In this document: piece by piece, positions 3,170-36,132 of the stretch
Numbering within the stretch: the stretch's first letter is position 1
Layout of the letters: the number at the start of each line of letters is the position of its first letter
Source of the DNA: Deltaproteobacteria bacterium
GTDB lineage: Bacteria; Myxococcota_A; UBA9160; UBA4427
Assembly (NCBI GenBank): GCA_002691205.1
Contig: NZHD01000007.1
Span: forward strand, 1-64,000
Reading direction: 5' to 3'
DNA: 64,000 nt
Made by a program: the position numbers and the translations under genes
Notes under the pieces: model-generated
The model's input: the letters and a program-made list of their open reading frames with translations, nothing else
Told to the model about the DNA's origin: nothing
Database searches by the model: none

Positions 3170-4726
3170 ATGAGCGACGTCGATATGGAAATCCTGGTCA
3201 TTGATGACGAGCAGCATTATCGCGAGAGTATCCGCCAAACTCTCAGCGAAGCGGGTTTGCCTTGTCGCGTAGCGAGTTCCATGGGCGAAGCTCGTGAGAG
3301 AGCAGGGGTTTCGCCGCCTGCTTTGGTGCTTTTAGATCTGGGGTTGCCGAACTCTGACGGCCTTGAAAGCTTGGCTGAATGGCTCTTGGGAGCGAATGCG
3401 CCCAAAGTGATCGTGCTCTCTGATGTTTCTGCCCAAGGAGAGGTACTTGAGGCTTTGAGACGGGGGGCTTCCGACTATCTGGCTAAGCCTTTGCATGAAG
3501 AAGAGCTTTGTTTGGCGGTGAGACGGAATTTGGAGGCTTGGGCGGTCGCCCGAAATCTACGTAACCTTGAAACGCAACTTGAGACACTTGCGATACGAAG
3601 CGAGAGCCTTCACCGAGAGTCAGAGGCCACACCGGTGGCGGATGAGTTCATTCGGCAAGGCGTGGTTGATTTGGCATGTGACGTTCTGAAAGCGCAAAGA
3701 GCGTCATTATTACTTCTCGATACCGCGGGCAAGCACTTGGTTGTGGTGGCGCGATCAGGAACTTTGAGTTCCCGCGAAGGCATGGAACCCATTCCCTGTG
3801 GTGAGGGCGTGTCGGGCTTTGTCTTTTCGCGCGCAAAGCCGATGTGGGTGGAGGACATGGAGACCCATCCTGATCTGGCGACCCTTTCGAACCCTGGACG
3901 GTACCGAAGCAAGAGTTTTGTTGCGGTGCCTATTTTTCACGCAGAGTCTCTGCTGGGCCTCCTTTTTGTGTCCGAGCCAATGGGGCGCAAGGCTTTTGCA
4001 AAGGGCGATCTTTCACTTCTCAGGTGGGCCGCTCAGCCTTTGGCTGAGAACCTTCGTTCGTCCTCGGCTCATGGGCGGAATGGAGGGGGGCTGGATAAGG
4101 ACGGAAGCCGTTTTAGGGAATCGCTGAGGGAGGCTTCTCCGGCCCTGAATGCAGAGGTTCTGTCTAAGCCCGACTCAGACGGTGAAATGGAACTGGAATC
4201 GGAGATGGCACGAGAGATCTGCCAAGCGGTCGCAGATGAGATCGATCCGGCCAGGGTCATCGGAGTGGCACTGGGTCGAGTGGCTGCGCTGCTTCCTGCT
4301 GCACCGGTTTCTCTCTATCTAGCAGATTCAGTGAGTGGAGAATTGCGCTGTGAAGCGACTTTAGACGGGGGCGTGTGTGAGGACCGTCCAGATTTAGAGC
4401 TGCGGAGAGGTCTCACAGGCGTGGCCATTCAAACGGGTCAACTTGTGGCGAGTGAAGATCCCTCGTCAGACCCCAGGTTTGATGTTGAAGTGGATACGCC
4501 GATGGGAGGGAAGGCTCAGCCCATGATGTGTCTCCCCCTCAGATTGCGAGGTAAGTCTGTGGGCCTCTTTAGGGCGTTTCTGCCTGAAGGTGAGCCTGTT
4601 TCGCCTCGTACGGCCGAAGTGCTCTCCGCCGCCCTGTCAGCAGCACTTCGTAGTGTGCTTCTGTACCGTAGTCTCGTTGAGTCTATCGAAGAAGTGGCCG
4701 AGGCTCGCAAAGACAGGCGTAGCTAA
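3170..4726 (+). CDS. Receiver-GAF-GAF response regulator, no DNA-binding output
   Basis: Cytoplasmic signalling protein of 518 residues. Residues 7-125 form an intact receiver: acidic pair D12/D13, phosphoacceptor D56 (LVLLDLGLPNSDG), S84 and K106 (AKP). A short coiled-coil linker (about 135-160) leads to two GAF domains, about 165-300 and 370-505. The first has the usual GEGVSGFVF and SKSFVAVPIF segments and the second has RRGLTGVAI and MMCLPLRL. No HTH, kinase, GGDEF or phosphatase motif was seen, so the output is unknown. A start 36 bases upstream is possible, but the ATG chosen has GGAG six bases in front. It sits between hslU and argB with no obvious functional link to either. Confidence 0.85.
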   Translation: MSDVDMEILVIDDEQHYRESIRQTLSEAGLPCRVASSMGEARERAGVSPPALVLLDLGLPNSDGLESLAEWLLGANAPKVIVLSDVSAQGEVLEALRRGASDYLAKPLHEEELCLAVRRNLEAWAVARNLRNLETQLETLAIRSESLHRESEATPVADEFIRQGVVDLACDVLKAQRASLLLLDTAGKHLVVVARSGTLSSREGMEPIPCGEGVSGFVFSRAKPMWVEDMETHPDLATLSNPGRYRSKSFVAVPIFHAESLLGLLFVSEPMGRKAFAKGDLSLLRWAAQPLAENLRSSSAHGRNGGGLDKDGSRFRESLREASPALNAEVLSKPDSDGEMELESEMAREICQAVADEIDPARVIGVALGRVAALLPAAPVSLYLADSVSGELRCEATLDGGVCEDRPDLELRRGLTGVAIQTGQLVASEDPSSDPRFDVEVDTPMGGKAQPMMCLPLRLRGKSVGLFRAFLPEGEPVSPRTAEVLSAALSAALRSVLLYRSLVESIEEVAEARKDRRS

Positions 4727-28222: not shown

Positions 28223-31020
28223 CTCCGTCTAAGAAAAAAAGTGCGAGTCGTCGAAATCAAACGGTGACCTCTAAGCCCAAGTCTCGTAGGAAAGTTGCCG
28301 CAAAGAAGAAGGCCTCAAGACGTAAATCTCGAGGCCAAACTCGAGAGAGCGCGAGGCGCGTTTTTTTCTTTGGCGATGGAAAGGCCGATGGAGACAGTCA
28401 ATTGCGCGAACTCCTAGGTGGCAAAGGGGCCAACCTAGCGGAGATGACGAATCTCGGTGTTCCTGTCCCGCCAGGATTTACTCTTTCGACGGAAGTTTGC
28501 ATCGAATACCGAAAGAAAAAGTCGAAGTTGGCGGCTGCGGTGAAGGCGGATGTTCTGACGGCATTAGCTGGAGTCGAACGGGTGCGAGGCCGACGCTTTG
28601 GAGACGCAGCCAACCCCCTGTTGGTTTCTGTTCGCTCGGGCGCACGAGTTTCTATGCCTGGGATGATGGATACGATTCTGAACCTCGGCTTGAACAGCGA
28701 GACCGTAGAGGGTTTGGCAAAGCAGATCGACGAGAGATTCGCGTTTGATAGCTATCGTCGTTTTATTCAGATGTATTCCGATGTTGTTCTGCAGGTGCCT
28801 CTCGATCGTTTTGAGTATTGCTTGGAAAATGCCAAGCTAAATAAGGGTGTGGAACTTGACACGGAACTTGAGGGGAGTGACTGGCGGGCGCTCGTAGATG
28901 AGTACCTGGAACTGGTGGAGCAGCACAGCGGCGAACCCTTCCCACAGGACCCGAAAGAGCAACTTTGGGGGGCCATTTCGGCTGTTTTCGATTCTTGGGA
29001 TAACGCGCGAGCCCAGGCTTATCGCAGACTCCACGGCATCGACGACGATTGGGGAACGGCGGTCAATGTTCAGTCGATGGTCTTCGGAAATATGGGAGAG
29101 GGGTGTGCGACCGGAGTGGCCTTCACTCGGAATCCCTCTACCGGAGAGAATCAGTTTTACGGAGAATATCTAGAGAATGCGCAAGGAGAGGACGTTGTGG
29201 CCGGCGTTCGAACCCCTCAGCCGATTAACGATTCAAGTCGTACGGCTGAGACTTCGGAGATGCCCGTGCTGGCTGAGGAGATGCCGAGCGTCTACGCCGA
29301 GTTGGTGCAGATCTACCGAAGGTTGGAGAAGCATTATCGGGATATGCAAGATCTTGAGTTCACCATTGAGCAAGGAGAGCTTTGGATTCTGCAAACCCGA
29401 TCTGGTAAGCGGACCACTCAGGCGGCCGTTCAGATTGCGGTGGACATGGCCCACGAGAAACTCATCACCCGAAAAGAGGCGGTCATGCGAGTGGATCCCA
29501 CTTCGCTCGACCAACTTCTTCATCCCACTTTGGATCGAACCGTCGCCCTTGAGGTGATTGCCACCGGCCTCCCGGCCTCCCCGGGAGCTGCCGTGGGGCG
29601 TGTCGTTTTTTCTGCTGAGGAAGCTGAAGTTCGCGCCAAAGCGGGAGAGCGAGTGATCTTGGTTCGGATCGAGACTTCGCCCGAGGATATTTTAGGGATG
29701 TATGCGGCTCAGGGTATCTTGACCGCACGAGGAGGAATGACTTCTCACGCAGCGGTCGTGGCGCGCGGCATGGGCAAATGTTGCGTGGCTGGCTGCGGGG
29801 CTTTGGCCATCGACTATGGAGCTCGAGAGATTCGGGTCGGCGACCGTGTGATTCGTGCAGGGGATTGGATCACTGTGGATGGATCAACCGGGGACGTGGT
29901 TCTGGGTCAGTTGCCTACGGTGGTTCCTGAGTTGGGCGTTTCTTTCAAGGAACTGATGAAATGGTCGGATCGGATTCGCAAGCTCAAGGTTCGCACGAAC
30001 GCGGATACTCCAGACGACGCCGAGCTCGCCCGCAGTTTTGGCGCTGAAGGGATCGGGCTTTGCCGAACTGAACATATGTTTTTCGAAGAGGAGCGTATTT
30101 TGGCCGTGCGTCAGATGATTCTGGCCAACGATACGGCGTCTAGAGAGATGGCTCTCTCTAAATTGCTCCCGATGCAGCGGCTAGATTTTGAAGGCATTTT
30201 TAGGGCCATGGACGGCTTGCCTGTCACCGTGAGGCTTTTGGACCCGCCTCTGCATGAATTTTTACCGCATCAGGATGATGAAGTGCCTGTCGTGGCAAAG
30301 GCGTTGGGTATCTCTGTGGCGGAACTTCGTGCCAAGCTTGATTCACTCCACGAGTTTAATCCAATGTTAGGCCACCGAGGCTGTCGTCTGGGGGTCAGCT
30401 TTCCAGAGATTTACAGAATGCAAGTTCAGGCTATTGCCGAAGCGGCTTGCGAGGTCAGCGCGGAAGGCGTCAAGGTGAGGCCAGAGATTATGGTTCCCCT
30501 TGTGACTCATCCGGGTGAACTTTCCCTGCTCCGCGAAGAAATTCAGGGCGTGATTGCGCAAGTCCGAAGTCGTTATCCCGGAACGCGAGTTCGGCCGAGT
30601 ATTGGCACGATGATTGAGGTGCCGCGAGCTGCCTTGACCGCAGATGTAATCGCGGAGCATGCCGATTTCTTTTCTTTCGGAACCAACGATCTCACTCAGA
30701 TGGGGTACGCGCTTTCTCGGGACGATGCAGGAAGTTTTCTTCCTACATACGTCGAAAAAGGGATTTTGAAAGATGATCCTTTCGTCTCCATTGATGAAGA
30801 GGGGATCGGCCAATTGGTTCGACTCGGGAGTGATCTCGGGCGCTCGACGCGTCCACGCTTAAAAGTCGGTGTGTGCGGAGAGCATGGAGGCGACCCGCAA
30901 AGCGTGCGGTTTTTTGCTCGGATCGGAGTCGATTATGTTTCGTGTTCTCCCTACCGAGTGCCCGCGGCCCGATTGGCCGCGGCCCAAGCCGAAGTGGAGC
31001 AGATGGAGGCTCTCGGATGA
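28219..31020 (+). CDS. ppdK: Pyruvate, phosphate dikinase
   Basis: Interconverts pyruvate + ATP + Pi with PEP + AMP + PPi, used in gluconeogenesis or glycolysis. The N-terminal ATP-grasp begins with RVFFFGDGKADGDSQLR and LLGGKGANLAEMTNLGVPVP. The phosphohistidine domain has GGMTSHAAVVARGMGKCC with the catalytic His. The C-terminal PEP/pyruvate barrel has GLCRTEHMFF, MLGHRGCRLG, GTMIEVPRAALTAD, FSFGTNDLTQM and VCGEHGGDP. About 45 Lys/Arg/Ser-rich residues precede the core, which is unusual. The TTG start overlaps the synthetase stop by 4 bases; starting further upstream would run deep into that gene. Confidence 0.95.
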   Translation: MTPSKKKSASRRNQTVTSKPKSRRKVAAKKKASRRKSRGQTRESARRVFFFGDGKADGDSQLRELLGGKGANLAEMTNLGVPVPPGFTLSTEVCIEYRKKKSKLAAAVKADVLTALAGVERVRGRRFGDAANPLLVSVRSGARVSMPGMMDTILNLGLNSETVEGLAKQIDERFAFDSYRRFIQMYSDVVLQVPLDRFEYCLENAKLNKGVELDTELEGSDWRALVDEYLELVEQHSGEPFPQDPKEQLWGAISAVFDSWDNARAQAYRRLHGIDDDWGTAVNVQSMVFGNMGEGCATGVAFTRNPSTGENQFYGEYLENAQGEDVVAGVRTPQPINDSSRTAETSEMPVLAEEMPSVYAELVQIYRRLEKHYRDMQDLEFTIEQGELWILQTRSGKRTTQAAVQIAVDMAHEKLITRKEAVMRVDPTSLDQLLHPTLDRTVALEVIATGLPASPGAAVGRVVFSAEEAEVRAKAGERVILVRIETSPEDILGMYAAQGILTARGGMTSHAAVVARGMGKCCVAGCGALAIDYGAREIRVGDRVIRAGDWITVDGSTGDVVLGQLPTVVPELGVSFKELMKWSDRIRKLKVRTNADTPDDAELARSFGAEGIGLCRTEHMFFEEERILAVRQMILANDTASREMALSKLLPMQRLDFEGIFRAMDGLPVTVRLLDPPLHEFLPHQDDEVPVVAKALGISVAELRAKLDSLHEFNPMLGHRGCRLGVSFPEIYRMQVQAIAEAACEVSAEGVKVRPEIMVPLVTHPGELSLLREEIQGVIAQVRSRYPGTRVRPSIGTMIEVPRAALTADVIAEHADFFSFGTNDLTQMGYALSRDDAGSFLPTYVEKGILKDDPFVSIDEEGIGQLVRLGSDLGRSTRPRLKVGVCGEHGGDPQSVRFFARIGVDYVSCSPYRVPAARLAAAQAEVEQMEALG

Positions 31021-31535
31021 GCCGGAGTTCCTCTATCAAACATCTACTTCTCGTGGCGCTGATGCTGCCTGCCTTTTGCAGCGGATGTGCATCCTGGTCG
31101 CCTCAAGAGTGGGGCCAGTACGCTCAATACGAGGGCTTCGATCCTTCCTCGCTCAATCGAGGAGGCTCAGGGGACTTCACAATCTTGGTTCCTCTCACCA
31201 AGGTCTTCTACGATCGCGTCACCGCGCGGCGCTTTAACAGCTTAGCGACCTATGAGGATCCGGCGCTCCGGGAGTTCTTTCGTACTCAAGAGTCCTTCTC
31301 GGACTATTATGCGGCCTTTGCCGAAGCGCTTGACCGCGCGAATTTCGAATACAATCGCCCGACTGCGGTTCGTCTTGAGTCGATTAAGCGCGGGGCCCTT
31401 AACAGGGTCGAGGTGCGGGTTTACTTTCGAGGTGAGAATGCCAAGCCCCTGCGCTTTTGGTCCACCCATGTGATGAGGGTGGATCAATGGGAGTTTTCCG
31501 GGGGCCGTTGGTGGGTGGTTCCAGGGAAGGTCTGA
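31017..31535 (+). CDS. Lipoprotein of unknown function
   Basis: 172 residues with a signal peptide and lipobox (LPAFCSGC, Cys24), so a predicted envelope lipoprotein. No family recognised. The mature part is mixed alpha/beta, with a central helix-rich stretch (FSDYYAAFAEALDRANFEY) and a beta C-terminus (RVEVRVYFRGEN, QWEFSGGRWWVV) that looks like a small cystatin/NTF2-like fold, which is only a guess. ATG overlaps the ppdK stop (ATGA), so it is coupled to ppdK. An earlier in-frame start would lie inside ppdK and is rejected. Confidence 0.72.
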   Translation: MSRSSSIKHLLLVALMLPAFCSGCASWSPQEWGQYAQYEGFDPSSLNRGGSGDFTILVPLTKVFYDRVTARRFNSLATYEDPALREFFRTQESFSDYYAAFAEALDRANFEYNRPTAVRLESIKRGALNRVEVRVYFRGENAKPLRFWSTHVMRVDQWEFSGGRWWVVPGKV

Positions 31536-31702
31536 CGGCGCGCAATTTCCTGCGGGGCACCTGAGAGGAAGGGAACTTGGGTTCTGGATAGTGGAAAAGA
31601 AATACCCCCCGTCTATTTCTCCTTTAATCTAAAAGGCCTTTAAGATGGGAATTTTCTTTACAAATCGCATGATTATCGTGCACAATTGTCTGGCATTTTA
31701 GA

Positions 31703-31718
31703 TGGCATGGGTTTTGCT
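31703..31718 (+). promoter_or_regulatory. Sigma-54 (-24/-12) promoter
   Basis: TGGCATGGGTTTTGCT compared with the consensus TGGCACG-N4-TTGCW. All fixed positions match except C to T at the sixth base, and the GG-to-GC distance is exact. It points towards the ECF sigma gene 248 bases downstream. A sigma-54 promoter also needs an enhancer-binding activator; no such gene is in the window. The A/T-rich upstream flank is compatible. Confidence 0.68.
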
Positions 31719-31816
31719 TATCTCATGGTCTGAAAACAACTCTTGAAAAAAACGAGCAAACTCGCGAAATGATGAAAGAAAGGGGTCAGAGAAGAAAGTG
31801 ATTCTGTAGGTCGGGT

Positions 31817-31841
31817 GAGAGTATGCAGGGAACATACTTTC
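31817..31841 (+). ncRNA. Leader hairpin with AGGGA loop
   Basis: Stem GAGAGTATG / CATACTTTC (nine pairs, one G-T) closes a seven-base loop CAGGGAA. An ANGGA in the loop of a hairpin is the recognition pattern of CsrA/RsmA proteins, so post-transcriptional control is possible. It lies about 90 bases downstream of the predicted sigma-54 start and 125 before the sigma gene. Whether it is part of an mRNA leader or a separate RNA cannot be told. Confidence 0.4.
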
Positions 31842-31966
31842 GGAATCTTCAGTCCGGCCCTCGATGATCTTTGAATCTCTGTATTTCTTTCGCCAACAAA
31901 GCCGACGAACGCATGGCCCGATTGGACATCCTCTCGCTGGGAAGCTCAGGAAAAGCGAGGCTGTGA

Positions 31967-32548
31967 ATGTCGACCTCTCAGAAAAGCTGGGGCTCAGACC
32001 AAGAACTGGTCGAGCGAATCATGTCCGGAAGTCAAACCGACTTTAACCTGCTTTACGATGCCTACTTTAATCGGGTGTATCGATTTGCCCTCAAAAGGTT
32101 ACGGGATTGTGCAGAGGCTGAGGATGTCGCTCAGGAAGTCTTCATGACTCTTCTGACCGCTCTGCCTTCCTATCAAGGGCAGTCATCTCTCCTCGTTTGG
32201 ATTTTTGGGATTACGAAGAATAAGGTCAATCGGCGTTTCCGACGTCCCAAGCCCATTCTTGAGCCCCTTGAAGAAGGGGGCGCTTTAGACGTCGAGGGCA
32301 AAGAGGTCGGAGTGGAGGAATCCATCGAAGCGCGACGGGTGCTGACCCGGTGCCAAGAAGTGATCGATGAAGAGTTCACGGAGACTCAGCGCGCTATTTT
32401 TGACCTGAAGCACCGTCGACATCAACCCATTCGGACCATCGCAAAAACTTTGGGTAAATCCGAAGATGCCGTGAAGGCCAACCTTTACCGAATGAGGCGA
32501 GTGATCAATCAGAGTACGCCAGGCTTAAAAGCAATTCTGGATCACTAA
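31967..32548 (+). CDS. RNA polymerase sigma factor, ECF type
   Basis: 193 residues with sigma region 2 (about 20-95; FNLLYDAYFNRVYRFAL, AEDVAQEVFMTLLTALPSY, LLVWIFGITKNKVNRR) and region 4 (about 130-180; EFTETQRAIFDLKHRRHQP, IRTIAKTLGKSEDAVKANLYRMRR). The region 2-4 linker is acidic. No sigma region 3, so group 4. No recognised anti-sigma factor (no ZAS zinc motif or membrane protein) is next to it. The following small protein could act as partner, but that is inference. Start ATG with GCGAGG nearby. Preceded by the sigma-54 promoter. Confidence 0.9.
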   Translation: MSTSQKSWGSDQELVERIMSGSQTDFNLLYDAYFNRVYRFALKRLRDCAEAEDVAQEVFMTLLTALPSYQGQSSLLVWIFGITKNKVNRRFRRPKPILEPLEEGGALDVEGKEVGVEESIEARRVLTRCQEVIDEEFTETQRAIFDLKHRRHQPIRTIAKTLGKSEDAVKANLYRMRRVINQSTPGLKAILDH

Positions 32549-32801
32549 ACAAAGTCCGGGTCTCGGTTCGCACGAAAAGTTGGGTTTTCTCTCCCAGTGT
32601 GGAGACGAGTCTGGGGTGATTTAACCTCTTTGATGCTCTCGTTTAAACACCTTTGACACAGTTGCATCAAGGGAGCCACTCACCCCCAAAGCAGGCGTTT
32701 TGGCCCCACTGCGGCCGGCTTCAGCGGTGTATACTGAGGCCCGGCTGAACTGGGGGGCAGGAGGCATCTGTTCCAAAGAAAAGAAGTTGGGGGGTCCAGT
32801 C
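32549..32801. other. Gap between sigma factor and small protein gene
   Basis: About 250 bases without a credible gene. A TATACT hexamer at about 32727 could be a -10 element but has no good -35 partner. No strong terminator hairpin was seen, so read-through from the sigma gene is possible. Confidence 0.35.
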
Positions 32802-33122
32802 GTGAGTCGTGATAGCTCTGGAGTAAGTTCGCGCGTGAGTCGGAGTGCTTCGCGGAGTCAAGCCGGTTCTCCAAAGTCCCCACCCGTAGAATCCGAACCG
32901 AGCAGCCCGGGAGCGAGTAGGGCAGGCCAACCCGCATGGACTCGCATTGATCTGGATTCTGTCCAGGAGGCCATCGATCCGATTGAACTACAGGAATTTC
33001 TGGAGGCGGATCGGAGCCACATTCAGGCAAATCCTGTTTTCAAGAATCGGCTTCGGGGACAGCTGTGGCGTCTTATTCAGTCGATGCAGAGTGACAAAGA
33101 GGGTGGTTCCTCATCGTCGTAG
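32802..33122 (+). CDS. Small Ser-rich protein next to the sigma factor
   Basis: 106 residues from a GTG start (the frame is open 100 bases further up, which gives a composition unlike the rest). The first ~55 residues are Ser/Pro-rich and probably disordered (SRVSRSASRSQAGSPKSPP). The C-terminal part has a helical pattern, QEFLEADRSHIQANPVFKNR then LRGQLWRLIQSM. Similar EFL-x-D...DP-x-F-x4-LR-x2-LW tails occur in unnamed deltaproteobacterial proteins near sigma factors (from memory). No cysteines, no membrane segment. It may regulate the sigma factor; function unknown. Confidence 0.5.
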   Translation: MSRDSSGVSSRVSRSASRSQAGSPKSPPVESEPSSPGASRAGQPAWTRIDLDSVQEAIDPIELQEFLEADRSHIQANPVFKNRLRGQLWRLIQSMQSDKEGGSSSS

Positions 33123-33199
33123 ATCTGACTCGAATCGGCCTGAGCCGCTGCCTACCAGATACATTTGGCCTCCTCGACTCCTCTTGATAAGTTTGAACC

Positions 33200-33784
33200 G
33201 TGCGTAATCCAATCCGCTTAAAGAATTTGAGCTCACGGCTCCTCCCGATCTACTTCATCGGCGCGGTTTTTTTCTTTCTTGCTCATCCGACGTTGGGTTC
33301 TTTCTGCTTCGGGCTCCCTGCGCTGGTCGCGGGCCTTTTCTTGCGTGCCTGGGGAGTGGGTCATTTGGTGAAAACAGAACGACTCACTGTGAGCGGACCT
33401 TATGCGCATGTTCGAAACCCTTTGTACTTGGGAACCCTCCTCGTTGGGTTGGGCTTCTCGCTCATGCTCAGTGGATGGGTGGGTTGGGGAAGCTTGTCGG
33501 TACTGCTGCTTTGGTTTGGCCTAGTTTATTTTCCACGAAAGGAGCAGATTGAATCCAACCGCTTGCGGGATCGTTATGGCGAAACCTATCAGGCGTATTA
33601 CGAAGCGGTCCCGGCGATCTTGCCTCGTCAAAAGGCTTGGCGCGCCGAGTTTCCGCTCGCCAATGAAATAGATCAGAGCCTCAAGTGGTCCTTTGAGCGC
33701 TATGACGCCAACAATGAGTTGGGGACGTTTTTAGCGTGTGTTCTCGGCGTGGGGTTGGTGGTTCTGCGGGCCATGGCTGCCTAG
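33200..33784 (+). CDS. Isoprenylcysteine methyltransferase / phospholipid methyltransferase-like membrane protein
   Basis: 194 residues with about five membrane segments (LLPIYFIGAVFFFLAHPTLG, FGLPALVAGLFLRAWGV, GTLLVGLGFSLMLSGWVGW, SVLLLWFGLVYF, and FLACVLGVGLVVLRAM at the end). The family signature is GPYAHVRNPLYLG followed by the RYGETYQAYYEAVPAILPR cofactor segment. These enzymes methylate small lipid or peptide substrates with SAM; the substrate here is unknown. GTG start. The kinase-like gene follows after 13 bases. Confidence 0.78.
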   Translation: MRNPIRLKNLSSRLLPIYFIGAVFFFLAHPTLGSFCFGLPALVAGLFLRAWGVGHLVKTERLTVSGPYAHVRNPLYLGTLLVGLGFSLMLSGWVGWGSLSVLLLWFGLVYFPRKEQIESNRLRDRYGETYQAYYEAVPAILPRQKAWRAEFPLANEIDQSLKWSFERYDANNELGTFLACVLGVGLVVLRAMAA

Positions 33785-33797
33785 ATGAGAGTCTAAG

Positions 33798-34418
33798 GTG
33801 AGTAAATCTAGATCAGCTTCTGAGCACTCCACTTCCGATTTAACTCTTCATTTGGACCGCGCGGGTTTTGAGGCTCGGGTCGAGCGGACTCTTCGGCGGG
33901 GGGGACTGGGGAATCCAGATGTCTTTTTAGTGCGCTTGGATCAGCGTTGGGTCGTGGTCAAAGATTTTGCGCCTCGGCCGTTTTGGTTGAGGGAGAGCTT
34001 GGGGGCATGGCTGACGGCTCGTGAGCAGAAGGCCTATCAAGCTTTAGAGGATGTCGACTTAGTCCCACGTCTGCTGGGCCGTGTCGATCGGCATGCCTTT
34101 GTTCTTGAATATCGCCCTGGTCGCCTTTTATCGCGTTCTCTGCGTGACGAACTCCCGGATCGCTTTTTAGATGAACTTGAGCGAGGGGTTTCGGAGATGC
34201 ATGATCTGGGGGTGGTTCACTTGGATCTGAGTCACCGAAGCAATGTTCTTCTGGGAGAAGACGGTCGCCCTGTGCTCTTAGATTTTGCCTCGGCGATTCG
34301 TTTAGCCCCCATGGGTCGAATTGGGAATCCTTTGTTTCGCTGGCTCGCTCGGGCAGATTATCGAGCTCTCGCAAAATGGAGAAGAAAACTAGGCACTCCA
34401 AGCGATGAGACGATCTGA
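33798..34418 (+). CDS. Small RIO/LPS-kinase-like protein
   Basis: 206-residue atypical kinase fold. Nucleotide-binding Lys K55 (RWVVVKDFAP), hinge-like FVLEYRPGRLL, catalytic loop HLDLSHRSN (141-149) and metal site LDFASA (D162). It lacks the activation segment and C-lobe helices of Ser/Thr kinases, as in RIO and WaaP/KdkA kinases. Two oddities: the catalytic Asp to Asn spacing is six residues instead of five, and DFG is DFA. The target could be a protein or a lipid/sugar; not determinable. Ends directly against the convergent exonuclease gene. Confidence 0.7.
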   Translation: MSKSRSASEHSTSDLTLHLDRAGFEARVERTLRRGGLGNPDVFLVRLDQRWVVVKDFAPRPFWLRESLGAWLTAREQKAYQALEDVDLVPRLLGRVDRHAFVLEYRPGRLLSRSLRDELPDRFLDELERGVSEMHDLGVVHLDLSHRSNVLLGEDGRPVLLDFASAIRLAPMGRIGNPLFRWLARADYRALAKWRRKLGTPSDETI

Positions 34419-35039
34419 CTAGGAAAGCGCCTCATCTTTGTCTTCTTGCGGACTGGTTTTCTCAGGAATGATCTCACTGAGTTCACGGGGCGAAAGGCGG
34501 CCTATGTAATGCCGAAAAGTCTCAAGAGTGAGACGCGCATCGGCCAGTGCTCTGTGTTGAACATTTGCGCCGTGGAGAAGTCCGGCCTCAGTGGCGGCTT
34601 GTCTGAGTGACAGAGACTTGATGCGTTCTCCGGCGACAAGGGACCAAGAGTAGAAAAGCGTGGCGAGATCGATGACGTGATAGTCGAACGGGTAGGGGAT
34701 GCCGCATTTTTTGTAGGCGCGTTCCAAGAAGATGACGTCCATCCGGACATTTTGACCGGCTGGAACGACCACCTTATCGGCGGGCATCATGGCGGAGATC
34801 TCGGTGAGGACCTGACGCACCGGCGGAGCGACGCTCCAGAGCTCTTCGTCGTATCCGAATATCTTCGCAGCTTCCGCGCTGATTCGTTCAGGCCTGGCTC
34901 TGACGCGCCACTGATCTTCCGCAAGCTCAACGAGCCGATAGTCGGTGAGAATGATCCCAACCTCGGTGAGGTCGTGGATTTCTACATCAAGTCCTCCGAA
35001 CTCGCAGTCGAGAAAAGCAAAAACGAGCTCGGGCGGCAT
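34419..35039 (-). CDS. DEDDh 3'-5' exonuclease (DnaQ/RNase T-like)
   Basis: 206 residues. Exo I motif D11 and E13 (FLDCEFGG), Exo II GQNVRMD (D101), Exo III QHRALADARLT (H162 and D167), so all four DEDD residues plus the catalytic His are present. Closest in layout to stand-alone DnaQ-like nucleases. It lacks the clamp-binding motif that would mark it as polymerase epsilon with certainty. Substrate could be DNA or RNA. Zero bases separate its stop from that of the kinase on the other strand. Confidence 0.8.
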   Translation of the reverse strand: MPPELVFAFLDCEFGGLDVEIHDLTEVGIILTDYRLVELAEDQWRVRARPERISAEAAKIFGYDEELWSVAPPVRQVLTEISAMMPADKVVVPAGQNVRMDVIFLERAYKKCGIPYPFDYHVIDLATLFYSWSLVAGERIKSLSLRQAATEAGLLHGANVQHRALADARLTLETFRHYIGRLSPRELSEIIPEKTSPQEDKDEALS

Positions 35040-35139
35040 TGATTTGGGGGTCCCTCTTGAGTGGTTTTTTCGAGTGAATAGGGTTTGACGAGCGATCCAG
35101 AGGCTTTGCGTAGTTTCGGCAAGGCCCGAGGCCAGAGTA

Positions 35140-35215
35140 TGGTGCTCCCAACGGGACTCGAACCCGTGTTTCAGCCTTGAGAGGGCCGCGTCCTAGGCCT
35201 CTAGACGATGGGAGC
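35140..35215 (-). tRNA. tRNA-Glu (CTC)
   Basis: Cloverleaf read on the minus strand: acceptor GCTCCCA pairs with TGGGAGC, D-arm GTCTAGAGGCCTAGGAC, anticodon loop CTCTCAA with CTC, T-arm around GGTTCGAGTCC, and an encoded CCA end. Length 76. The D-arm and the GCCTAGGAC stretch resemble E. coli tRNA-Glu. A CTC anticodon reads GAG. Flanked by a DEDDh exonuclease gene and, on the other side, by a promoter of its own. Confidence 0.94.
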
Positions 35216-35559
35216 ACTGACGAGCGCCGAACTTTGCCAATTGGCTGAGGCAATGTCAACCGATGCCGTCTCTTCTTGCCGGATCCGCTGATCCAGGAGA
35301 CCCCCGAGGATTCGTCGAGGTGAGAAACTCCTCCCTGGACCCCTCTGAGACTCCCCGCCGGGCGTGCCTTTCCATTCTCTTTTTGTGAGGCGGAAAAGGG
35401 GTTTTCCGATTCAAACCCTCAAGGTTTAGACCTGAGGTTGCCGATAGAAGACCAAAAGGTTTTTTCCTGTTTTTGAAGACAGGTCATTTGGGTGGAACGG
35501 TGTCTCGGAAATATTTTTGGATAGCCAGCGAGCCAGGAACGGATCAAGGAGGAACCAGG
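35216..35559. other. Intergenic stretch between tRNA-Glu and the pilin gene
   Basis: 344 bases. The tRNA-proximal end holds the tRNA-Glu promoter (minus strand). On the pilin side are a 7-base hairpin (CGGAAAA / TTTTCCG, GGGG loop, at 35391-35408), an imperfect hairpin around CCTGT...ACAGG near 35467, and T-rich tracts. No clear sigma-54 or sigma-70 promoter for the pilin could be fixed. No protein-coding frame stands out. Confidence 0.5.
35231..35259 (-). promoter_or_regulatory. Promoter of tRNA-Glu
   Basis: Minus strand -35 TTGACA is perfect, with a 17-base spacer to CAAAGT as a weak -10 (three of six matches). A GC-rich discriminator (CGGCGC) follows, typical of stringently controlled stable-RNA promoters. 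The start would fall about 8 bases before the mature tRNA. The weak -10 keeps the confidence moderate. Confidence 0.5.
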
Positions 35560-36132
35560 ATGAAAGTCCGATGCCTAAATCGGTCGCAAAAGGCCTTTAC
35601 GTTGATTGAACTCATGATCGTGGTGGCTCTGATCGGAGTTTTGGCCAGTTTGGCGATCCCTTCATTCAGGACCTATCAAATGAAGAGCAAACGAGCTGAG
35701 GCTTTTGGGAATTTGGCGACCTTGGCCCAGACACAAAAATCGTATTTTGCAGAGTTCAGTGGTTTCGTGGCTGCTGCGCCCGAGCCTGGTGCGACTACGG
35801 GTGAAGTGCCCACCAGCACAAAGAGAAGTGTGGCCCCGATCTCGGCCGCCTACGCGTCCTTGGGTTGGACCCCGGAAGGTGATGTCTTCTTCGACTATGA
35901 CACCAGCGTGCCCGGTTTCGGAGACTGTAGTTGCACGGCGTGTTTTACCGCGACAGCGTACGGAGACTTGGATTCCTCAGGTACGATGAGCGAGATTACA
36001 TTTTTTCATCCTGACTCCAACGGTGGGTTCTGTACGGTGGGCGTCAGTGGTCATGGTCCACCCACTGACGGCGTGACCAGCCAGGTGATTTGGAATTCAC
36101 CCGTTCGTCATCCATCGTCAGATTTTTTCTGA
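35560..36132 (+). CDS. pilA: Type IV pilin / pseudopilin
   Basis: Prepilin of 190 residues. After a basic leader (MKVRCLNRSQKA) comes the class III signal FTLIELMIVVALIGVLASLA with Glu5 of the mature chain; methylated Phe1 is expected. Cleavage would follow Ala12, whereas most prepilins have Gly there. The globular part has three close Cys (GDCSCTACF) plus one near the C-terminus (GGFCTVG), so disulfides are likely. AAGGAGGA lies ahead of the ATG; an ATG upstream in frame gives a poor leader and is rejected. Placed first in pilA-G-H-I-D order. Confidence 0.8.
   Translation: MKVRCLNRSQKAFTLIELMIVVALIGVLASLAIPSFRTYQMKSKRAEAFGNLATLAQTQKSYFAEFSGFVAAAPEPGATTGEVPTSTKRSVAPISAAYASLGWTPEGDVFFDYDTSVPGFGDCSCTACFTATAYGDLDSSGTMSEITFFHPDSNGGFCTVGVSGHGPPTDGVTSQVIWNSPVRHPSSDFF

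Follow-up and report, generated by a model that had tools for sequence, protein, structure and literature searches.

The ECF sigma factor gene described here very probably forms the second tier of a two-tier sigma switch, in which an enhancer-binding protein (bEBP) would drive sigma-54-dependent synthesis of a leader-bearing mRNA and the ECF factor made from it would act on targets of its own, with further control exerted through the leader by something other than CsrA. The promoter, the predicted enhancer, the locus and the leader elements are recognized by comparison across relatives, and from their arrangement we infer binding, transcription start, co-transcription, leader regulation and downstream targets. 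A bEBP encoded elsewhere would bind an inverted repeat at 31590-31609 and, once bound, activate sigma-54 RNA polymerase at a -24/-12 promoter; the mRNA would start near 31729 and would carry a leader of ~238 nt, the ECF gene, in relatives often a second ECF gene, and the coding sequence of a conserved small protein. In turn, the ECF factor could switch on its own gene set, and the structured, non-coding leader most probably governs how stable the ECF mRNA is or how well it is translated, via a partner other than CsrA. All positions refer to the window, that is, the whole 64-kb stretch of DNA that was analysed, which belongs to a genome of 4.55 Mb that is 94% complete.

The ECF sigma gene and its neighbourhood

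The gene order is ppdK, a predicted lipoprotein gene (called from its own sequence, without a family match), 431 nt of intervening sequence, and the ECF sigma gene at 31967-32548 on the forward strand, the ATG of which, at 31967, comes immediately after an in-frame TGA. The 193-aa product has the size (~190 aa) and make-up expected of an ECF sigma factor, which retains only regions 2 and 4. It scores 55.1 bits against Pfam Sigma70_r2 and 74.7 against NCBIfam sigma70-ECF, above the respective cut-offs of 24 and 42.9, which bears out the ECF-type assignment made in the initial annotation; against Sigma70_r4_2 its score of 23.9 is slightly under the cut-off of 25.7. Orthologs with 56-82% identity are present in 48 related genomes, or in 49 of the 60 genomes searched when the window's own is included, its entry being the window gene itself; in 11 of the 60 there is no ortholog above 50% identity. 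The ortholog set was drawn from the searched genomes plus named contigs, with duplicates, defined as loci sharing identical ECF residues 21-150, removed and one locus (L015) put back by hand. Another locus, L133, the start of which is misplaced, was left out of the counts over 53 leaders and over 48 genomes.

The neighbourhood is well kept, with the lipoprotein gene upstream of the ECF gene in 28/28 longer loci checked and ppdK in 25/28. A second ECF gene directly follows the first in 12/28 of the longer loci and in 13/18 further loci (the genomes partly overlap), and none is found downstream of the first in the window or in L033, the nearest relative, which belongs to the same genus as the window's genome. 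This second paralog, ~32-42% identical to the window's ECF factor, was seen in L037, L041, L044, L046, L047, L052, L054 and others. A small ORF lies downstream of the ECF gene at 32700-33122 on the forward strand, its start codon uncertain and its C-terminal motif, ELREFLxADxxxVxADPxFKERLRxxLWxxV, conserved; related ORFs come after the ECF gene, or after the second ECF gene, in 26/28 loci, two of them recovered via the second search round only. Its product is a candidate partner or anti-sigma factor of the ECF sigma. Neither Pfam nor NCBIfam has a match to this ORF, and the earlier statement that no anti-sigma factor of known type is adjacent is right as far as these two collections show.

The sigma-54 promoter

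Promoters recognized by sigma-54 share the core TGGCAY-N5-TTGC, with the -24 GG and the -12 GC at fixed spacing. The sequence TGGCATGGGTTTTGCT at 31703-31718 on the forward strand matches this consensus, with GG at 31704-31705 and GC at 31716-31717, and lies 248 nt upstream of the ATG, just where a near-consensus promoter had been noted in an annotated stretch that starts at 31691, 12 nt ahead of it. It is the sole zero-mismatch match to TGGCAYN5TTGCW within the 64-kb window. At up to one mismatch there are 3 such matches against 3.24 expected, which is chance level, so that conservation, and not the bare match, carries the case for a promoter.

That conservation is complete among the orthologs compared. 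A -24/-12 element, defined as at least 10/13 positions with GG and GC fixed, stands upstream of 39/39 distinct orthologs; with L015 added (n=40), scores of 10, 11, 12 and 13 are found in 5, 9, 19 and 7 orthologs, respectively, and 14 further distinct orthologs likewise carry the element, for a total of 54/54. The comparison across relatives that the initial annotation had proposed for the promoter is thus decided in its favour. Dinucleotide-shuffled regions reach at least 10 in 12% of cases, at least 11 in 2% and at least 12 in 0/800, on the reverse strand of these regions a score of 10 is attained in 5/40, and among other 1-kb segments from the same loci (n=432) scores of 10 and 12 are attained in 15.7% and 2.3%, respectively. 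Five of the first 40 promoters are weak, scoring only 10/13, the value that chance gives in 12% of regions, and these five are supported by enhancers at the right spacing. No -24/-12 promoter precedes either of the two ECF paralogs of the window's genome that were examined. From the position of the promoter, transcription would begin at ~31729, 12 nt after the -12 C.

The window's genome encodes rpoN (E 1.6e-63). Together with the 54/54 promoters and the near-fixed enhancer described below, this strongly supports a predicted sigma-54-to-ECF cascade of the kind that the initial annotation had suggested, on evidence that is comparative throughout.

The predicted enhancer and the reach of the proposed switch

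Enhancers of sigma-54 promoters are expected at about -80 to -200. The regions upstream of the orthologs share an inverted repeat, GGGAAAA-N3-TTTCYC (a.gGGAAAA...TTTCtC.c), which was modelled from a seed picked by eye in the orthologs' own upstream regions and then refined. Leave-one-out scores of at least 10 are obtained in 48/54 upstream regions as against 1/270 shuffled regions, and in 47/54 the best site, whatever its score, lies 104-114 bp ahead of the -24 G. As a conserved sequence at this distance the repeat has the character of an upstream enhancer. The predicted enhancer of the window, AGTGGAAAAGAAATACCCCC at 31590-31609 on the forward strand, has its centre 105 bp ahead of the -24 G and a leave-one-out score of 16.7 at -105; it departs from the strict pattern (TAC for TTC), which we count against the two-tier switch. 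In L033 the enhancer is weak: with this locus left out of training its best site is at -127 with a score of 8.6, and with it included the model places the site at -106.

Two loci outside the training set but of the same order, L257 and L258, both have the promoter, with enhancers at -110 and -109; their leaders bear the hairpin together with a variant form of the motif treated below. In a further genome of that order (G050), the closest homolog of which is 47% identical, the promoter scores 11/13 and the enhancer is absent. The sister order is more distant, with a homolog ~41% identical in 5/6 genomes seen, and in all five the homolog adjoins lipoprotein and methyltransferase homologs. Here the -24/-12 element is found at 12 or 13 of 13 positions in 5/5 syntenic homologs and an enhancer-like site (score at least 7.5) at -104 to -107 in 4/5, but the promoters lie 11-82 nt ahead of the aligned ECF start, so that the leader is short or absent. 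The leader is therefore not essential to the switch; the switch itself seems to extend across the class, and the long leader to be particular to the window's order.

The genome has what a sigma-54 promoter requires, rpoN and enhancer-binding proteins, the latter represented by 19 matches to bEBP domains, of which 11 are nearly full-length and none lies inside the 64-kb window.

Related promoters and PEP-CTERM genes

A composite pattern of GGAA-N6-TTC, 90-115 nt and TGGCAY-N5-TTGC has 73 matches in 40/60 genomes, and its reversed control has 0. By our own count 28 of the 73 are at the ECF locus. Once one overlapping duplicate and one further copy of the ECF leader, from a different contig, are left out, 43 other sites remain, 6 of them cut by contig ends, and a PEP-CTERM protein follows at 17, a raw count that is a by-eye correction of 18 script calls (false tails removed at L238 and L249, a missed tail added at L187). 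The window's genome has one match to the pattern, downstream of a two-component bEBP gene. At L191 (G000:C77:55500-64500) a partial bEBP/kinase-like gene and a bEBP gene are followed by an enhancer and a -24/-12 element, the promoter ending near locus base 4613, and then by a 176-aa gene and, as judged by eye, tatA- and tatC-like genes.

The recurrence of the same enhancer-promoter pair ahead of a PEP-CTERM protein at 17 of 43 other places in relatives invites the reading that PrsR, the PEP-CTERM response regulator, serves as the activator. The PrsR/sigma-54 promoters of PEP-CTERM genes are indeed alike in having an enhancer and a -24/-12 element upstream (Haft 2006; PMC1569441), and in Aquincola a PEP-CTERM gene has been shown to depend on RpoN (PMC9850573). 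The PrsR system nonetheless differs in enhancer sequence and spacing, its published site ending in TTTACA and lying a mean 62.8 nt from the promoter motif (PMC1569441), whereas the repeat here is GGGAAAA-N3-TTTCYC with a gap near 100; it differs too in its targets, every orthologous locus examined here having kept an ECF gene as the target. The PrsR model TIGR02915 is over its cut-off in 1/60 genomes, and that one is not the window's, so that neither a PrsR equivalog nor a TTTACA-ending site ~63 nt upstream accompanies this promoter. The window's genome has 31 PEP-CTERM matches, 27 of them over the cut-off, from which 20 loci were taken and 17 scanned, and at these 17 there is no enhancer with a good -24/-12 element; one has a weak 10/13 promoter-like match with GGAA-N6-TTC at -101 and an enhancer score of 4.8. 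Taken together, we regard PrsR as quite an improbable activator, and favour a different bEBP as the upper tier of the two-tier switch. As possible targets of the ECF factor, 17 PEP-CTERM genes of this genome were searched upstream for a two-box motif, the best of which occurs in 4/17, with shuffles reaching 3-4. Four of the PEP-CTERM genes of this genome lie close together on contig C45. Among the relatives, L161, L200-L204, L206, L207, L209 and others have PEP-CTERM genes after GGAA-N6-TTC and a -24/-12 element, an arrangement unlike the published PrsR site. A common enhancer would thus link the ECF gene to genes of PEP-CTERM surface proteins in relatives.

Comparison with known sigma cascades

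Cascades that run from sigma-54 to an ECF factor are best known from HrpL; RpoS, the second sigma factor of the comparable pathway in Borrelia burgdorferi, is not an ECF sigma. In Pseudomonas syringae (HrpRS, RpoN, then HrpL) sigma-54 and enhancer-binding proteins likewise drive an ECF gene (PMC8228185). HrpL serves type III secretion and has its activators HrpRS in the same cluster, whereas the locus here is ppdK-lipoprotein-ECF, with no bEBP domain in the window and with a leader that has conserved elements of its own. Effects of RsmA have been reported for the HrpL system (PMC8228185), and these are not transferable to the present locus, since csrA was not found. The Rrp2-RpoN-RpoS pathway of B. 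burgdorferi is similar in that sigma-54 leads to a second sigma factor, and BosR, an RNA-binding protein, acts there on rpoS RNA (PMC11109971). None of the papers listed gives, in its title or the opening of its abstract, an account of such an arrangement in Myxococcota or with PEP-CTERM, which is no proof of absence, and the available portions of three further papers make no mention of it (PMC12316311; PMC3162934; PMC12655853).

Comparison suggests that nearly every relative with the ECF gene has kept the sigma-54-to-ECF arrangement, and in this uncultured group of Myxococcota the cascade has the appearance of a core regulator passed on vertically. The site of its activator can be read from sequence, and the activator and its regulon should therefore be findable.

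The predicted leader RNA

The predicted 5' untranslated leader of ~238 nt (31729-31966, forward strand), its start read off the promoter and with a stop directly before the ATG, contains two recognizable elements. The conserved motif ACTCTTGAAAA at 31739-31749 on the forward strand matches the consensus ACTYTTGAAAAGCC at 11/14 positions, and further downstream GAGAGTATG-CAGGGAA-CATACTTTC at 31817-31841, also on the forward strand, forms the hairpin that the initial annotation had described as 9 bp with an AGGGA loop. That description holds: the arms at 31817-31825 and 31833-31841 make nine pairs, one of them G-U, around the loop CAGGGAA. A 9-bp hairpin of any kind arises in 88 of 2000 dinucleotide-shuffled leaders, one whose loop includes GGA in 8, and one whose loop includes AGGGA in 2, the test being post hoc. 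The overall stability of the window's leader is not above that of shuffles (z -0.42), and a hairpin covering the ribosome-binding site, present in the folds of several relatives, is not robust in the window. Searches against Rfam gave three sub-threshold matches in the window at 31500-32100 (E<=5), none at the gathering score, and 0 matches in the loci of 20 relatives.

In relatives the leaders are ~150-700 nt long, a several-fold range, with several hairpins, and most are predicted to begin with a further element. A 5' hairpin with a stem score of at least 5.5 is found in 36/53 leaders compared with 6.5% of shuffles; 42 of the 43 stems found start 13-17 nt after the -12 C, and ACTYTTGAAAAGCC follows the hairpin with at least 11/14 positions in 38/53 leaders compared with 4/2650 shuffles. 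Covariation was evaluated in two sets chosen for equal spacing from 37 stem-bearing crops. In 14 gap-free sequences two pairs change on both sides, with a score reached by 0/500 shuffles; the second set, of seven sequences from a single genus, has three such pairs and a score reached by 3/500. A plain count of doubly changed pairs is less telling, as 156 and 25 of 500 shuffles, respectively, attain it. The window's own leader keeps the motif ACTCTTGAAAA and the CAGGGA hairpin and lacks the 5' hairpin, an absence that we count against the two-tier switch: a covariance model of the 5' element, applied to 29000-36000, leaves the leader unmatched and finds one weak match elsewhere, and the window's genus has either lost this hairpin or never had one.

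The hexamer CAGGGA occurs 33 times in 40 leaders against 6.0 expected, is present in 23/40, and stands in strong hairpin loops at 10/43 sites against 3.7 expected. In one genus the loop AGTTCAGGGA is invariant in 7/8 orthologs and 5/8 stem pairs change on both sides, the covariation score being reached by 0/500 shuffles and the pair number by 26/500. The eighth ortholog, L053, has the variant loop TTCAGGGC and was left out of this comparison, as were L033 and L038, which belong to other genera. As to the stem conservation that the initial annotation had asked relatives to show, hairpins with CAGGGA loops do recur, but the window's exact stem has, by eye, no positional counterpart in L033. The related proposal of control through a structured leader finds support in that such a leader is conserved in relatives, but as a mechanism it is not supported.

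A reading of the shared motif as coding, within a leader peptide, was rejected on account of indels of 1-2 nt between close relatives, seen by eye. By these comparisons the leader is probably a conserved, non-coding element, and probably a new cis-acting RNA element. We tentatively suggest, rating the chance as somewhat less than even, that it represents a new cis-regulatory RNA family of one Myxococcota order, composed of the 5'-terminal hairpin, ACUYUUGAAAAGCC and hairpins with CAGGGA loops, through which a protein other than CsrA, or a ligand, would gate the cascade.

Other readings of the leader

Two simpler accounts of the interval between promoter and ECF gene deserve consideration. The leader may be a mere spacer, its motifs leftovers or DNA sites and control exerted wholly at the promoter, a reading with which the several-fold variation in leader length, the ability of the sister order to manage without a leader, and the missing 5' hairpin in the window's own genus would all agree. 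Compensatory stem changes around an invariant loop are hard to reconcile with it, as is the placement of the motif near the predicted start site in 38/53 leaders, and we consider it unlikely, though not so much so as to carry no weight. Small RNAs driven by sigma-54 are known in other bacteria, and the length of the leaders and their several hairpins could likewise suit a separate small RNA that ends before the ECF gene, which would then be transcribed from elsewhere. No evidence was obtained for such an RNA, which the initial annotation had offered as an alternative. Strong matches to the 5'-element model are almost confined to the ECF locus (13/14 places with E<0.01 in 40 genomes, in a scan that scored 150 candidates per genome, returned mostly training sequences and missed many ECF loci), no terminator-like site is present on the plus strand of the window's leader, and in the sister order the promoter is so near the aligned ECF start that it could hardly serve a separate RNA there. 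We hold this account to be highly improbable, and retain the two-tier switch with a leader that is part of the ECF mRNA.

The remaining proposal, that CsrA/RsmA binds the AGGGA hairpin and controls ECF translation, originated with the initial annotation and has an evident appeal. The loop CAGGGA, which we take to fit the CsrA pattern, places GGA in a hairpin loop as in CsrA-bound leaders, the hexamer and its occurrence in strong loops are enriched as given above, and csrA is present in 19/60 genomes. Against it, csrA has 0 matches at E<=10 in the window's 94%-complete genome and is likewise undetected in the genome of the same genus. Leaders with CAGGGA occur in 9/16 genomes with csrA and 20/32 without it (Fisher p 0.76, over 48 related and hence non-independent genomes), and the invariant TTCAGGGA hairpin of one genus is found in three csrA-bearing genomes and in four without the gene. 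In the leaders the looser ANGGA does not exceed chance (80 observed, 79.6 expected). Gaps in the drafts may account for some of the missing csrA genes, but hardly for the whole twenty. We therefore give very little credence to CsrA as the controller, and prefer a different partner for the leader within the two-tier switch. The presence of CsrA-like loops in genomes without detectable csrA raises the testable question of whether such loops have other readers. In the window, GGA is also visible near the ECF start codon.
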